Shown in pieces: positions 1 through 56,274 of a stretch of 64,000 nt of DNA; the first letter of the stretch is position 1, and every line of letters starts with the position of its first letter. The position numbers were made by a program, and so were the translations under genes. The notes beneath the pieces are model-generated. The model made no database searches. It was not told the DNA's origin and worked only from the letters and a program-made list of their open reading frames with translations. Source of the stretch: Paracholeplasma brassicae (lineage in GTDB: Bacteria; Bacillota_I; Bacilli_A; Acholeplasmatales; UBA5453); contig NC_022549.1 in assembly GCF_000967915.1 (NCBI RefSeq), positions 186,001-250,000 of the forward strand. The letters are read 5' to 3'.

Positions 1-1
1 T

Positions 2-64
2 ACTGAAAGCGAAACAAACAATCGTGGTTATTTAAACGATGTAGGATTACCAGAAGGATTTTAA
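2..64 (+). CDS. C-terminal end of an unidentified CDS (partial)
   Basis: An open frame enters from the left edge and encodes TESETNNRGYLNDVGLPEGF before a TAA stop at 62-64. Only about 20 residues are visible, so no family can be named. The next gene starts 54 bases later on the same strand, and the gap holds a short hairpin (AAGGTTT/AAACCTT, 82-99) with no T-tract, so the two may be co-transcribed. Confidence 0.45.
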   Translation, partial: TESETNNRGYLNDVGLPEGF

Positions 65-4437: not shown

Positions 4438-6057
4438 ATGAAGTTATATCAAGACAGTAAAAAGATCATTATTCATCAGAGTGAAGAGTTTTTTCTTTCA
4501 CCAAAAGAACTTTTAGAAACGGCGATGTTTAAAGAGGTATTGAGTGAGTATTATCAAACGACCATCACGTTTGTAAAAGAAGAAACACTTTTTAGTATTT
4601 ACGAACAAATCGTATTAAACGACGCTTACTTAAAAGAACTACCAAACCACATCAAAGAAGAAGTATTTAATCTAACGGAGGGCTTCTATGATTATTGGCG
4701 TAAGAAAGAAAAGTATTTAATCTTTAAAGACGGGCCGTTACTTGAGGCATCAAATACGTTTAATGACGTCATAATTAAAACCTACCGGTTAATTACTGAG
4801 GGCTTATCGGGTAAGAAAAATAACGTCTATCGTCAATTGAGTGCGGGATTTAATGTGGTATTAAACCATGTGTCTACGTCGCTTTTTGAAGGCGAATTGA
4901 GTCATCTAAATGACGTCATTTGCCTAAATCAAATGGTGATTAGACCACCGTTCGTGATCCGAACCAAATCGAACACAAGAAAAGGCTTGTTTAAAGAGAC
5001 GAGCGTCAATCTATTTAAGGAAGTTAAAGACCTTAAAGGCTTTTTTATGATGCCAATCAAGGTGGGTAGAGAGCTCGCTTTGGTCTATGTGAAAGATAAA
5101 TATTTGCACCACGGCATCAGCTTATCAAGTCTATTTGAAATGGCAGATACCAAAGAGCTCTACACATTAAAACCAAGCTTAATGATTTTCTTTGGTGTCA
5201 GCGATAGCACCTATGACAATCACTACTACATTGATGAGAAAAAGGGCTACTACGTTGGTATCGTCTCAGACTTAGAGAAGAACGATTACTTTGGCTACAT
5301 GAAAAAGATGTTACTTACCTTACACAATCTAAAAAAGATTAATGAAGGCTGTTTGCCAATCCATGGGGCAATGGCAAAAATTACCTTCAATAACCACCAA
5401 CAGAAATACATTATGATGGTTGGTGACTCTGGGGCAGGTAAGTCTGAGACACTTGAGGCACTGGGTAATTTAGGTGAGGGGAAAATCAAGTCGTTTGACA
5501 TTATTTTTGATGACATGGGCTACCTTCTAGAAGAAGATAATATCATACGAGCTAGCGGAACTGAAATTGGGGCGTTTGTCCGTATTGATGACTTAGATGA
5601 TGGCTACATCTACCGAGAATTTGACCGGTCCATCTTCTTAAACCCAGAACGACACAACGCGAGACTCATCATCCCAGTGTCACGCTATGGGTTTATCAAA
5701 AGAGCACATCCTATCGACATGGTCTTATACATTAATAACTACAGCATGGATGATCAGATTCTATCTCGTTTTTCCTCGCTGATTGAAGCCAAAGACGTAT
5801 TCTTAAGTGGCAAACGCATGGCCAAAGGAACGACCGATGAAAAAGGCTTGGTTGAAAGTTTCTTTTCAAACCCGTTTGGTCCGGTTCAAAAAGAAATGAC
5901 GACTCGTTTTTTAGTCGATCAGTACTTTGAGGCATTAGACAAACAAGGCGTTTATTTAGGTGTGCTTAATACCAAATTAGGTGTGGCTGGCTTTGAAGAA
6001 GAAGGCCCGAAGATTGCCGCAAACGCGTTACTTGATTATTTTAACGACAAGGCATAA
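4438..6057 (+). CDS. P-loop protein resembling HPr kinase / PEP carboxykinase ATPases
   Basis: This 539-residue soluble protein carries a Walker A motif GDSGAGKSETLEALG near residue 329 and an aspartate-rich FDDMGYL near 358. That order and wording (GxSGxGKSE followed by a DDxG motif) resemble the HprK/PEPCK-type nucleotide-binding fold. A conserved-looking C-terminal stretch (GTTDEKGLVESFFSNPFGP) follows. The N-terminal 300 residues resemble nothing I can name. The start is ATG 4438 after GGGGGG; an earlier in-frame ATG at 4420 lies before that site. Neither PEP carboxykinase nor HPr kinase activity should be assumed, because the rest of either catalytic signature is not evident. Confidence 0.7.
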   Translation: MKLYQDSKKIIIHQSEEFFLSPKELLETAMFKEVLSEYYQTTITFVKEETLFSIYEQIVLNDAYLKELPNHIKEEVFNLTEGFYDYWRKKEKYLIFKDGPLLEASNTFNDVIIKTYRLITEGLSGKKNNVYRQLSAGFNVVLNHVSTSLFEGELSHLNDVICLNQMVIRPPFVIRTKSNTRKGLFKETSVNLFKEVKDLKGFFMMPIKVGRELALVYVKDKYLHHGISLSSLFEMADTKELYTLKPSLMIFFGVSDSTYDNHYYIDEKKGYYVGIVSDLEKNDYFGYMKKMLLTLHNLKKINEGCLPIHGAMAKITFNNHQQKYIMMVGDSGAGKSETLEALGNLGEGKIKSFDIIFDDMGYLLEEDNIIRASGTEIGAFVRIDDLDDGYIYREFDRSIFLNPERHNARLIIPVSRYGFIKRAHPIDMVLYINNYSMDDQILSRFSSLIEAKDVFLSGKRMAKGTTDEKGLVESFFSNPFGPVQKEMTTRFLVDQYFEALDKQGVYLGVLNTKLGVAGFEEEGPKIAANALLDYFNDKA

Positions 6058-6064
6058 AAAAAGG

Positions 6065-6093
6065 CGACAAGCATCAATTGCTTGTCGTTTTTT
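6065..6093 (+). terminator. Bidirectional intrinsic terminator
   Basis: CGACAAGCA / TGCTTGTCG with a five-base loop and T-run on the plus strand. A run of A on the other side gives a T-tract on the minus strand, so it can also end the minus-strand peptide gene. Confidence 0.85.
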
Positions 6094-6171: not shown

Positions 6172-6354
6172 TTAAGACGTGACCTTACCTGGGGGTAGCG
6201 GGGGATAATAAATATCACCTGGATCAGAATCAAGAGAAATGGCCTGTTTTTCATTTGCATGTTCAATCAACGGATTAAAATCCATTGAAACGAGGTATAA
6301 TTGTATTAGTGTTACGATTAAAAACAGTCGTTTAAGAACATGGAACTTTTTCAT
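6172..6354 (-). CDS. Small exported peptide, candidate quorum-sensing pheromone precursor
   Basis: This is a 60-residue peptide with a basic N-terminus (MKKFHVLKR), a hydrophobic core (LFLIVTLIQLYLV) and a polar C-terminus ending DIYYPPLPPGKVTS. That is the layout of exported pheromone precursors such as PapR, Phr or SHP. The start ATG at 6354 has a Shine-Dalgarno TGGTGGG seven bases upstream; an upstream in-frame ATG at 6411 lacks one. The gene diverges from an RRNPP-type regulator, the classic arrangement for peptide-receptor pairs. A minus-strand -10 box TATAAT sits at 6382-6377, preceded by a 16-base palindrome. The mature peptide and its processing are inference. It could instead be an unrelated small secreted protein. 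Confidence 0.6.
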   Translation of the reverse strand: MKKFHVLKRLFLIVTLIQLYLVSMDFNPLIEHANEKQAISLDSDPGDIYYPPLPPGKVTS

Positions 6355-6376
6355 GCGAATCCCACCAATCGAGGCT

Positions 6377-6420
6377 ATTATAAAGAATAAGATTGGTGTA
6401 AAACAGCTCAAATTTGAGCT
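6377..6420 (-). promoter_or_regulatory. Promoter and palindromic operator of the peptide gene
   Basis: The minus strand has a consensus -10 TATAAT at 6382-6377 and only a poor -35. A perfect 16-base palindrome, AGCTCAAATTTGAGCT, occupies 6405-6420. With a start site near 6370 its centre lies at about -42, the usual position for an activator that contacts RNA polymerase at a weak -35. The regulator gene begins 19 bases beyond it on the other strand. Confidence 0.55.
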
Positions 6421-6438
6421 TGAAATGTAGGTGGTAAT

Positions 6439-7370
6439 GTGATAAGAAAGATTGATAACGAATTATTTGTGTACCTAGATAGCATTAGAAAAGATCAAAA
6501 CATCTCACAAGAAGACTTGTGTTTTCCAATCATTACCGAATCACTTTACAGAAAGTACTTAAAAGGCAGCGTTAAAGCGCCACTTGAGGTGATTGAAGCC
6601 TTATCAAACCGACTCGGGTTTCGTTTTGATTTTTTTATGCGTGAATTTTCAAATCAAACCTATCAAGAAAATGAACTAGTGACTCAGTTTTTTAATTTAA
6701 CCATTGGTAGAAACTTTAAAGAGGCTATGGCCGTTTATCAAGTTATTATAAAAAAACCAATCATTCAAAAAGAAAATCAGTTGTTTTTTGAGACGTCGGT
6801 GTTGATTAAACGTTTGTTTGAAAAAGACATCAATTCGTTTTATTTTTCCAAAGCGATGAAATCATTGATCGACTTTGAGCACATCTTAAAAAAAAGCACC
6901 GTGTCACTTGCTGAGGCCTATGGGCTTGGGTTGTTGCTAGATAACGTCGTTAAGGAAGAAAAAGAAGTGATCGCAAAAAAACTTGAAAGTTTGATTTTAA
7001 CACCGAATAAGGTGATTTTTGGTAATCACAGTCACGTGATTAATTTGGTTGCCTTACACGTGGTTAAATACCTCGAAAAAGAAAAACTCTATGAACGGGA
7101 GCTTTTGGTTTTAACGCACGCAATTGAGGCCTCAAAAGAAAAATAAGAATTCGTATTTACTTGAATACTTTCACTATTTTTTGGGGTTATTGTTATCGAG
7201 CGCTTGGTAATGAAGCGTTGTTCTATGATCACATGTTTTATTGTTACTGCTTATACATCGCCTCAGAAGACAAACAAATCATTGAGACGTTTGATTATTT
7301 ATTTAAAAAGGATTTTAAGACCTCACCAGGGCTATTTATCAGGGATTATTTAGATAAAAAAAGTTTCTAA
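6439..7370 (+). pseudogene. RRNPP/Rgg-PlcR-type transcriptional regulator, interrupted by two frameshifts
   Basis: The N-terminal 70 residues form an Xre-like helix-turn-helix (ISQEDLCFPIITESLYRKYL). The remainder looks like the TPR-type peptide-binding domain of Rgg, PlcR or PrgX proteins. The first frame stops at TAA 7144-7146. Removing one base from the A5 run at 7139-7143 continues the protein as NKNSYLLEYFHYF. Removing one base in the TTTTTTGGGG tract near 7176-7186 then joins it to GYCYRALGNEALFYDH and on to the stop at 7370. The repaired protein is about 309 residues, the normal RRNPP length. It starts at GTG 6439 after TAGGTGG. It may be a true pseudogene, a phase-variable gene, or two homopolymer sequencing errors. 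Confidence 0.7.
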
Positions 7371-7453: not shown

Positions 7454-8578
7454 ATGAAACGATTTTCGTTATTACTTTTTATGCTGGCATTTGTGTTTAG
7501 TCAGTTTCAACCAGTCGTCAAAGCCGATGACTATGACGTGGTTTACTTTGGATCAAAGCTTTGTAGTGGGTGTCAAGAAGTTGAAGCTTCTGGTGTCTTT
7601 GATGAATTAGAAGCCCAAGGCTTAAACGTAAAAAAATACATCTTAGAGGATGACTCGAGTTATACAGGTATCTTCAGAAACTATCAGTATACGTATGGGG
7701 TTAAAGACAGTGAAAAAGCAGTCCCTATTTTGTTTGTTGGAGATACCTTCGTTAATGGGGTAGAAAACATCAAAAAAATGACGCTTAATGAAGAAATTAA
7801 AACCCTCGCACAAACCCCGATGTTACCGATTGAAGAGGCACCTGCGGGTGGGATTCAAATTGTGTATTTGATGTTACTCGGTTTACTCGATGGGATTAAT
7901 CCTTGTGCGATTGCGATGTTAATCATCTTTATCTCGCTTTTAGGGTTTTCCAAAGAAAAGAAAGTGTTGTTAAAGGTCAGTATCACCTTTATGTCTGCGA
8001 TATTCATTAGTTATTTCTTGTTTGGGACCATCTTATTTCGGTTTTTATCCGTCTTTGCGCATTTAGGGTTTTTAGTCACGGTGGTGCCCTACGTCATATT
8101 AGGGATATCCGTCGTTTTATTTCTTTTAAACTTTTATGATTATTTAGTGACCCGTAAACAACAATACGATAAAGTTAAAAATCAGTTACCAAAAGGGATT
8201 CAACGATTCAACCGTAATTTGATGAAGAAATTCACAGACGCCATGGAAAATGATTCCATTTACATGTACGTGATTACCTTTGTTTTAGGCTTAATTATCT
8301 CAGTGACGGAATTCTTATGTACGGGACAAGCTTACTTAACAGCGATTCTTCACCTCATTCATTTTAGTGATCACGTGATGCGTGGGATTTTATTATTATT
8401 TATGTACAACATTCTATTCATCTTACCACTAATCATCATTACCGTTATCGCAGTCAAAACCAAATCGGTGATGGGCGTGACGGTCTTTATGAGAGAAAAA
8501 CTACACATCGTTAAGTTGATTAACGCCATCGTCTTTTTAGCGATTGGGATTTATTATATTTTTGTGATCATCGGTTAG
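7454..8578 (+). CDS. Exported thioredoxin domain fused to CcdA/DsbD-like membrane domain
   Basis: Residues 1-24 form a signal peptide. Residues about 28-115 form a thioredoxin/glutaredoxin-like domain with the redox motif CSGC at 37-40 and the cis-Pro segment AVPILF. From about residue 135 there are six or more membrane helices with INPCAIAML near the start and a cysteine in the later helix (LCTGQAYL), the pair expected for DsbD/CcdA thiol-electron carriers. Likely role: moving reducing power across the membrane to extracytoplasmic thiols. The order (Trx first, then membrane domain) differs from E. coli DsbD. It leads a likely operon with the next two genes. Confidence 0.85.
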   Translation: MKRFSLLLFMLAFVFSQFQPVVKADDYDVVYFGSKLCSGCQEVEASGVFDELEAQGLNVKKYILEDDSSYTGIFRNYQYTYGVKDSEKAVPILFVGDTFVNGVENIKKMTLNEEIKTLAQTPMLPIEEAPAGGIQIVYLMLLGLLDGINPCAIAMLIIFISLLGFSKEKKVLLKVSITFMSAIFISYFLFGTILFRFLSVFAHLGFLVTVVPYVILGISVVLFLLNFYDYLVTRKQQYDKVKNQLPKGIQRFNRNLMKKFTDAMENDSIYMYVITFVLGLIISVTEFLCTGQAYLTAILHLIHFSDHVMRGILLLFMYNILFILPLIIITVIAVKTKSVMGVTVFMREKLHIVKLINAIVFLAIGIYYIFVIIG

Positions 8579-40961: not shown

Positions 40962-40977
40962 AGCCGTGTATTCAATA

Positions 40978-41125
40978 TGTATCGTATAATCAGCCTAATA
41001 TGGGGGCTAAGTTTCTACCGCGAGCCTATAACGTCGCGACTACGATATGAAAACCATTTTTTTATTTGTTTTCATATGTAGAAATGCCACCTATTTTACC
41101 AAAAATAGGGGCATTTTTCTTTTTT
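40978..41125 (+). promoter_or_regulatory. Purine riboswitch (guanine class) with terminator platform
   Basis: The aptamer spans about 40978-41049: P1 TATCGT/ACGATA, ATAATCAGCC ... GGGGGCTAAG, the conserved GTTTCTACCGCG, and GTCGCGACTACG. The C in GACTAC indicates guanine/hypoxanthine rather than adenine. A hairpin ATATGAAAAC/GTTTTCATAT (41045-41077) overlaps the 3' side of P1. A terminator (stem AAATGCC-a-CCTATTTT with AAAATAGG-GGCATTT, T-run to 41125) follows. The expected logic is off when purine is bound. It controls the purine permease downstream. Confidence 0.92.
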
Positions 41126-56162: not shown

Positions 56163-56274
56163 GTATCCCTATGAGGCATCACCATTCAATTGTAGCGAGT
56201 GAACCTGGTCAGGTCTTGACTGAAGCAGCCATAAGCTTTGTTATGATGTGAGTGGTGATGCTTGATAGGGATAC
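56163..56274 (+). ncRNA. ffs: Signal recognition particle RNA (small, 4.5S-type)
   Basis: The invariant core GGTCAGGTCTTGACTGAAGC followed by AGCC is at about 56207-56230, containing the Ffh-binding asymmetric loop and apical region. The 5' end GTATCCCTAT, AGGCATCACCA pairs with the 3' end TGGTGATGCTT, ATAGGGATAC, giving one long hairpin of about 112 bases without an Alu domain. It may be processed from the tadA transcript or use a promoter within tadA. The classic GGAA-type tetraloop is replaced here by a TTGA-like loop. Confidence 0.93.

Follow-up and report, generated by a model that had tools for sequence, protein, structure and literature searches.

The locus at positions 6172-7370 of the window, by which we mean the whole 64,000-nucleotide stretch of DNA that was analysed (G000:C1:186001-250000, from a genome of 1.88 Mb in a single contig), is very likely to be a two-gene peptide quorum-sensing cassette, in which a self-activating pheromone gene is paired with a regulator of a ComR/PlcR-like RRNPP subfamily, an assignment inferred from sequence alone. 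The features of the locus and its immediate surroundings are as follows.

6172..6354, minus strand: putative pheromone precursor gene (60 aa), with a basic start, a hydrophobic core and a Pro-rich tail, DIYYPPLPPGKVTS
6361..6366, minus strand: Shine-Dalgarno-like GGTGGG ahead of the peptide ATG (direct sequence reading)
6377..6382, minus strand: TATAAT, the -10 box of the promoter driving the peptide gene; the operator lies 22 nt upstream of it
6405..6420, no strand assigned: 16-bp perfect palindrome AGCTCAAATTTGAGCT, the predicted operator, with its centre near -42 of the peptide promoter
6439..7146, plus strand: first part of the regulator (235 aa; GTG start, TAA stop), comprising the HTH and most of the TPR-like domain
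7140..7370, plus strand: last part of the regulator, in another frame after a frameshift
6065..6087, minus strand: terminator-like hairpin 3' of the peptide gene
1..64, plus strand: end of the last copy in a tandem array of small peptide genes, part of a paralogous cassette just upstream of the window

The peptide frame runs from an ATG at 6354 (minus strand) to a stop codon at 6174-6172 and encodes MKKFHVLKRLFLIVTLIQLYLVSMDFNPLIEHANEKQAISLDSDPGDIYYPPLPPGKVTS in full; its start lies 84 nt from that of the divergent regulator gene. No other gene is joined to it on its strand, and the hairpin (6087-6065) is, by position, common to the peptide gene and to a convergent gene ending at 6057. The two regulator parts align in turn, end to end, to 24 relatives of about 305 aa, and therefore represent one gene split by a small indel near 7140; for alignment and tree building only, they were joined by an X. 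Programmed frameshifting near 7140 was set aside, since the aligned relatives keep one frame there. The preliminary description had proposed a 60-residue peptide with a basic start, hydrophobic core and Pro-rich tail, divergent from a regulator in need of repair, and a promoter at 6377; all three claims held, the regulator being a single gene broken by a frameshift close to 7140 and the promoter displaying a perfect TATAAT (6382-6377, minus strand) 22 nt from a perfect 16-bp palindrome.

Further along the regulator strand, 83 nt 3' of that gene, the frame at 7454-8578 encodes an exported thioredoxin-like N-terminus followed by a DsbD/CcdA-like membrane part (weak NCBIfam matches), and the two genes may possibly share one transcript. 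The window also contains a purine riboswitch (40962-41062) and a small SRP RNA (56173-56267), both at the Rfam gathering score.

The focal regulator belongs to a family with three intact paralogues in the same genome and relatives in 21 of 61 genomes of the same genus, family and order. With a 25-member profile, members were found in 52 of 160 genomes of the order (34 of 88 among the good ones) and in 62 of 395 sampled genomes of the class. About 100 regulators from Acholeplasma, Peloplasma and related Bacilli were inspected, with named hosts including Acholeplasma oculi, Peloplasma aerotolerans, Tenericutes bacterium MO-XQ and Mycoplasmatota strain zrk7; a narrower alignment served for the profile search of genome contigs. 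An N-terminal Xre-type HTH is present, HTH_3 being detected in 15 of 25 members at E <= 0.01 and in the focal regulator at E 2.9e-4, which falls short of Pfam's cut-off. The family profile reaches PlcR (E 1.6e-6 over 247 residues), as well as ElrR and Rgg2.

The AlphaFold model of an intact paralogue from the focal genome (pLDDT 90.7, pTM 0.81) displays an HTH followed by a run of paired helices, a C-terminal TPR superhelix of the RRNPP type. Foldseek searches with this model returned ComR and PlcR at the top (about 2e-6), and the matches with E < 0.001 were the RRNPP receptors ComR, PlcR, PrgX, Rgg and NrpR, together with one unnamed Listeria regulator. PlcR superposed on the paralogue with a VIA Z of 17.9 and an rmsd of 8.6 over 272 residues, the large deviation being likely to reflect domain orientation; unrelated TPR proteins scored up to Z 13.7 against the same model. 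When the 235-aa focal part was folded by itself, with no alignment, the model (pLDDT 51) was too poor for its fold to be judged.

A divergent small ORF of the exported type lies beside 35 of the 50 testable regulators, as against 2 of 226 other genes of the same loci, under a strict rule by which the ORF must be divergent, preceded by a ribosome-binding site, signal-peptide-like and within 160 nt of the regulator start. About 30% of the regulators miss this rule, some having leaderless ORFs and others none. Most regulators with readable upstream DNA are accompanied by a divergent small ORF with a Shine-Dalgarno sequence, an MKK or MRK start and a hydrophobic core, and many of these precursors consist of two to nine head-to-tail copies of a unit of ~13 residues (LDF[ED][DN]SGxPE..), as illustrated by IDFDDSGFPEFVR in six copies (L064), LDFDDPDLPELVN in six (L164), DFDDRDEPEFIN in nine (L153) and DFHNSGNPEYEEL in eight (L007). 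The consensus pheromone core is LDF[ED][DN]SGxPE[WLYF][VI].

The peptides are under selection. Units within one array are alike as protein and differ mainly at synonymous sites, with a mean per pair of 5.3 synonymous and 0 nonsynonymous differences in L064; the units were chosen by protein pattern, a source of bias in the count, although in L064 the pattern is matched by every one of the six units in the array. Orthologous precursors display pN/pS values of 0-0.5. Regulator and pheromone-core distances are correlated (r 0.53, 43 pairs, 0/5000 permutations), a correlation that shared descent alone could yield. The partial correlation between pheromone and TPR distances, given the HTH distance, is merely 0.19, and no claim is therefore made for the TPR domain specifically.

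These results bear on the two observations that, according to the preliminary description, would refute its reading, namely a regulator fold devoid of TPR repeats and relatives without a conserved small exported ORF at their side. Both checks were run; TPR-like repeats were found in the intact paralogue and the ORF was found beside the relatives (35/50 versus 2/226). The proposed Xre-type HTH with a TPR-like C-terminus thus held, the latter at the level of the family, and the quorum-sensing reading is supported, with secretion and binding remaining inferences only.

Several loci depart from the common arrangement. In L066, L072, L101, L102, L105 and L106 no exported peptide is found and a divergent leaderless ORF carries a similar core (FSDVGIPDIV and DGFYWIGDPEFIW are examples); several of these ORFs are followed by a membrane protein with the look of a lipoteichoic-acid synthase, judged by eye only. 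In L162, two to three near-identical short pheromone genes stand in tandem beside one regulator, a second route to higher copy number besides repeats inside one precursor. The regulator of L145 (G042:C1:271851-274574) is broken by an inserted ORF, transposase-like by eye, and its peptide gene is intact. The paralogous cassette just upstream of the window (L077:8700-10065, G000:C1), which ends at window position 64, has a regulator divergent from seven tandem small peptide genes in the order A-B-A-B-A-B-A, in 366-nt units; B carries a signal-like leader and A does not, and both terminate in RGY..DVGLP[DE]G. Its first peptide gene is preceded by GTGACATATGTGCTCT, with CATAAT 22 nt further on (by eye). 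The window gene at 119-925 begins 55 nt after this array and could conceivably belong to the same operon.

The intergenic regions of the family have in common a 16-bp palindrome, ASNNC-N6-GNNST, which in its strict form occurs in 29 of 60 intergenics against a mean of 1.1 and a maximum of 5 after shuffling. Reading toward the peptide gene, a TATAAT-like hexamer (at least four matches) stands exactly 22 nt beyond the palindrome in 39 of 41 distinct cassettes, compared with 16 at the runner-up offset of the range; at operator sites elsewhere, a -10 box stands at the same distance in 40 of 41 cases. The fixed spacing places the centre of the palindrome near -42, a usual position for an activator in contact with RNA polymerase where the -35 element is poor. 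The focal locus combines a perfect palindrome and a perfect TATAAT at the 22-nt spacing of the family.

Several relatives contain GACATATATGTC, the core of the comX ComR box (PMC5131891), and in ComR the helix 3 residues R35 and R39 contact the GACA bases (PMC5131891). In the family, Arg at residue 35 of the recognition helix accompanies G at half-site position 3 in 40 of 42 cases, and Ser accompanies T or C in three of three, from two lineages that include the focal pair. Many relatives have an inner GACA/TGTC together with helix-3 arginines, and the focal locus has the half-site CTCA and Ser at residue 35, a joint change. By analogy, the covariation between Arg35 and G agrees with ComR R35 touching that base; the numbering was matched to ComR by helix position and not by residue-level superposition.

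The same operator recurs at other promoters. It occurs two to nine times per genome in the Peloplasma group and in some other genomes, with almost no control matches; many of these sites are orthologous and so not independent. On the 3' side of the operator, about eight loci encode a Band_7 protein together with a 5TMR-PAS-GGDEF-HD-GYP protein; other sites precede genes for radical-SAM/SPASM proteins (in one case with a subtilase), for a C39 peptide exporter with an HlyD protein (in the genus-mate G004), and for RHS/DNRLRE proteins, ABC proteins and AAA ATPases. The focal genome yielded no second close operator, the other operator-like sites (1392566 and 542126) being at control level.

Two further arrangements were observed. 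In G022 and G001 (L079:3953-13916 and L080:6176-8355), the pheromone gene is followed by a gene for a sigma-70-like factor and then by genes for a membrane protein and nucleotidyltransferase-domain proteins, with a 2242-aa RHS-repeat protein further on in G022. The site ahead of the C39 exporter and HlyD gene of G004 (L239:1000-4295, G004:C33) is a perfect Peloplasma-type operator, and the cassette of G004 itself bears a different palindrome; horizontal gain or a missed regulator are possible explanations for this operator.

The focal pair groups with L133 of G070 in a quick tree (SH-aLRT 99). In L133 the regulator is intact, the peptide tail is LGDPPFPPFGVKK / ELGIKDLGDPPFPPFGVKK, and the operator AGGCCAATTTTGGCCT is followed by TATAAT at 22 nt. 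The focal and L133 tails have D.GD..PP.PP in common, a weak likeness (shuffle p 0.028), and the focal tail departs from the core motif of the family (motif score, shuffle p 0.22); the focal pair is therefore regarded as a divergent branch with a Pro-rich tail. Searching for relatives with the focal peptide returned only itself and matches at chance level. The case for the focal peptide as a pheromone rests mainly on its position, its promoter and the sister locus L133.

In the proposed mechanism, the precursor would be exported through its hydrophobic N-terminus, trimmed to a short tail peptide and returned to the cell via an oligopeptide permease. The peptide would then bind to the TPR domain of the cytoplasmic regulator, a step inferred from the fold and without binding data, and the dimeric HTH is predicted, from the promoter geometry and the joint change of helix and half-site, to activate transcription at the 16-bp palindrome near -42. 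Autoinduction is proposed because the operator stands before the peptide gene, so that the pheromone would raise its own expression by positive feedback; competition and c-di-GMP genes lie behind the same operator in some relatives. Sequence evidence shows the pairing, the paralogue fold, the selection on the peptides and the operator, which keeps a fixed spacing from the -10 box and also occurs at other promoters; export, trimming, re-import and receptor binding are extended from known RRNPP systems (PMC11343458, PMC5131891). Opp-type binding proteins (SBP_bac_5) are encoded in the focal genome, but 147 of 160 genomes of the order have them too, and their presence does not discriminate.

The alternative that survives best is that the focal copy, although a true cassette by descent, is in decay and no longer signals, its frameshift having taken away the last helices of the regulator; the evidence is balanced and this could as well be true as false. 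In its favour, the frameshift falls ahead of the last ~70 residues, no further operator copy exists in the genome and three intact paralogues there could have taken over. On the other hand, the C-terminal frame has stayed open and can be aligned over its whole length, and both the operator palindrome and the -10 box are perfect, so that any decay must be very recent. A sequence error in an A-run would account for the frameshift without decay, and the remaining genes in the first 15 kb appear to be of full length. The focal copy may thus be inactive or may carry a sequence error at the frameshift, both being possible.

A second alternative takes the small ORFs not for pheromones but for bacteriocins or toxins, governed by a regulator that acts independently of any peptide. 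The same operator stands over peptide export and radical-SAM genes in some genomes, and antimicrobial activity is possible for small exported peptides. This reading is nevertheless unlikely, given that the receptor fold is of the RRNPP type, that the short acidic repeat units are conserved to the letter and covary with the regulator, and that an immunity or export gene is usually absent beside a peptide gene of the focal type. The weakest alternative, an ordinary Xre/RstR-type repressor next to an unrelated small ORF by chance, draws on RstR being the top NCBIfam match (far under its cut-off) and on Pfam detecting only a sub-threshold HTH_3 in the focal protein, but is very unlikely, being contradicted at the family level by the pairing rate, the selection on the peptides and the fixed spacing between operator and -10 box, and further opposed by the TPR fold and by the lack of a relative among viral contigs under the patterns used. 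On the strength of that search a phage origin is not supported, nor is it excluded.

The quorum-sensing reading places the locus among systems of a known kind. RRNPP quorum sensing has been described for Bacillota and their mobile elements, and RRNPP systems and multi-copy precursors are already known (PMC9765709, PMC10075063, PMC11343458, PMC12700828); the large RRNPP survey covered complete Firmicutes genomes and viruses. In the main texts of these four papers, Tenericutes and Mycoplasma are absent, as are Acholeplasma and Mollicutes where they were searched for. The preliminary description had suggested that such systems are poorly described in Mollicutes and that the peptide may represent a new class. 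No description of such signalling in mycoplasma-like bacteria was found in the open-licence literature searched, which is not proof of novelty, and the family core is apparently undescribed in that literature, with the focal tail lying outside it. While the RRNPP kind is known, the subfamily, pheromone class, operator and lineage are apparently undescribed in the searchable literature.

A bolder reading, which taken as a whole we consider likely, is that Acholeplasmatales and related Bacilli commonly communicate through a hitherto undescribed RRNPP subfamily. Its pheromones would be multi-copy polyproteins built from units of about 13 residues, with leaderless forms as well; its operator would be ComR-like and fixed near -42, and its regulon would take in c-di-GMP genes, RiPP/bacteriocin-export genes and RHS genes. 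Since receptor, pheromone, operator and candidate outputs are all obtained from comparative genomics, the code is directly testable: the abutting repeats delimit the pheromone unit, and the natural joint changes of helix and operator are specificity variants. This wall-less lineage is usually credited with few regulators; if the bolder reading is true, peptide signalling is a general trait of it.

Among known systems, ComR-ComS (XIP) of streptococci is similar in its HTH and TPR receptor, ComR being the top Foldseek match, in its GACA/TGTC palindrome, which many relatives of the focal regulator combine with helix-3 Arg35/Arg39 (PMC5131891), in the activation of its own peptide gene, here implied, and in the proximity of a sigma-factor gene, which adjoins two cassettes of the family (sigma-70-like). 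It differs in that here the peptide gene is divergent from the receptor gene, the pheromone core (LDF..SG.PE) is unrelated and often multi-copy, the output genes are others and the identity is only 11-13%; ComR governs comS and the competence gene comX, and the operator targets found here are of other kinds. PlcR-PapR of the Bacillus cereus group scores best among solved sequences in the profile comparison (E 1.6e-6) and has the best structural Z (17.9), but has another operator and another pheromone, and the focal peptide gene is divergent, with a different tail. The PapR gene lies downstream of PlcR on the same strand. The arrangement initially proposed was that of PlcR-PapR or Rgg-SHP; the operator is nearer to that of ComR-ComS than to that of PlcR-PapR, with GACA/TGTC as in the ComR box (PMC5131891). 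Rgg-SHP and RopB-LCP of streptococci have the receptor fold and a small ORF adjoining the receptor gene, and the peptides of RopB-LCP are leaderless, as in some members here; most of the precursors described here, in contrast, have a signal-like leader and acidic units that contain Pro, and are not short hydrophobic peptides. Membership of the Rap-Phr group was rejected, as an HTH is present, whereas Rap has a 3-helix domain with a phosphatase or protein-binding role and no DNA-binding domain. Tandem Rap-Phr pheromones nonetheless resemble the present precursors in having several pheromone copies per precursor, up to eight in one (PMC11343458); the system described here is distinguished by DNA-binding receptors and by abutting units with a period of about 13 residues.
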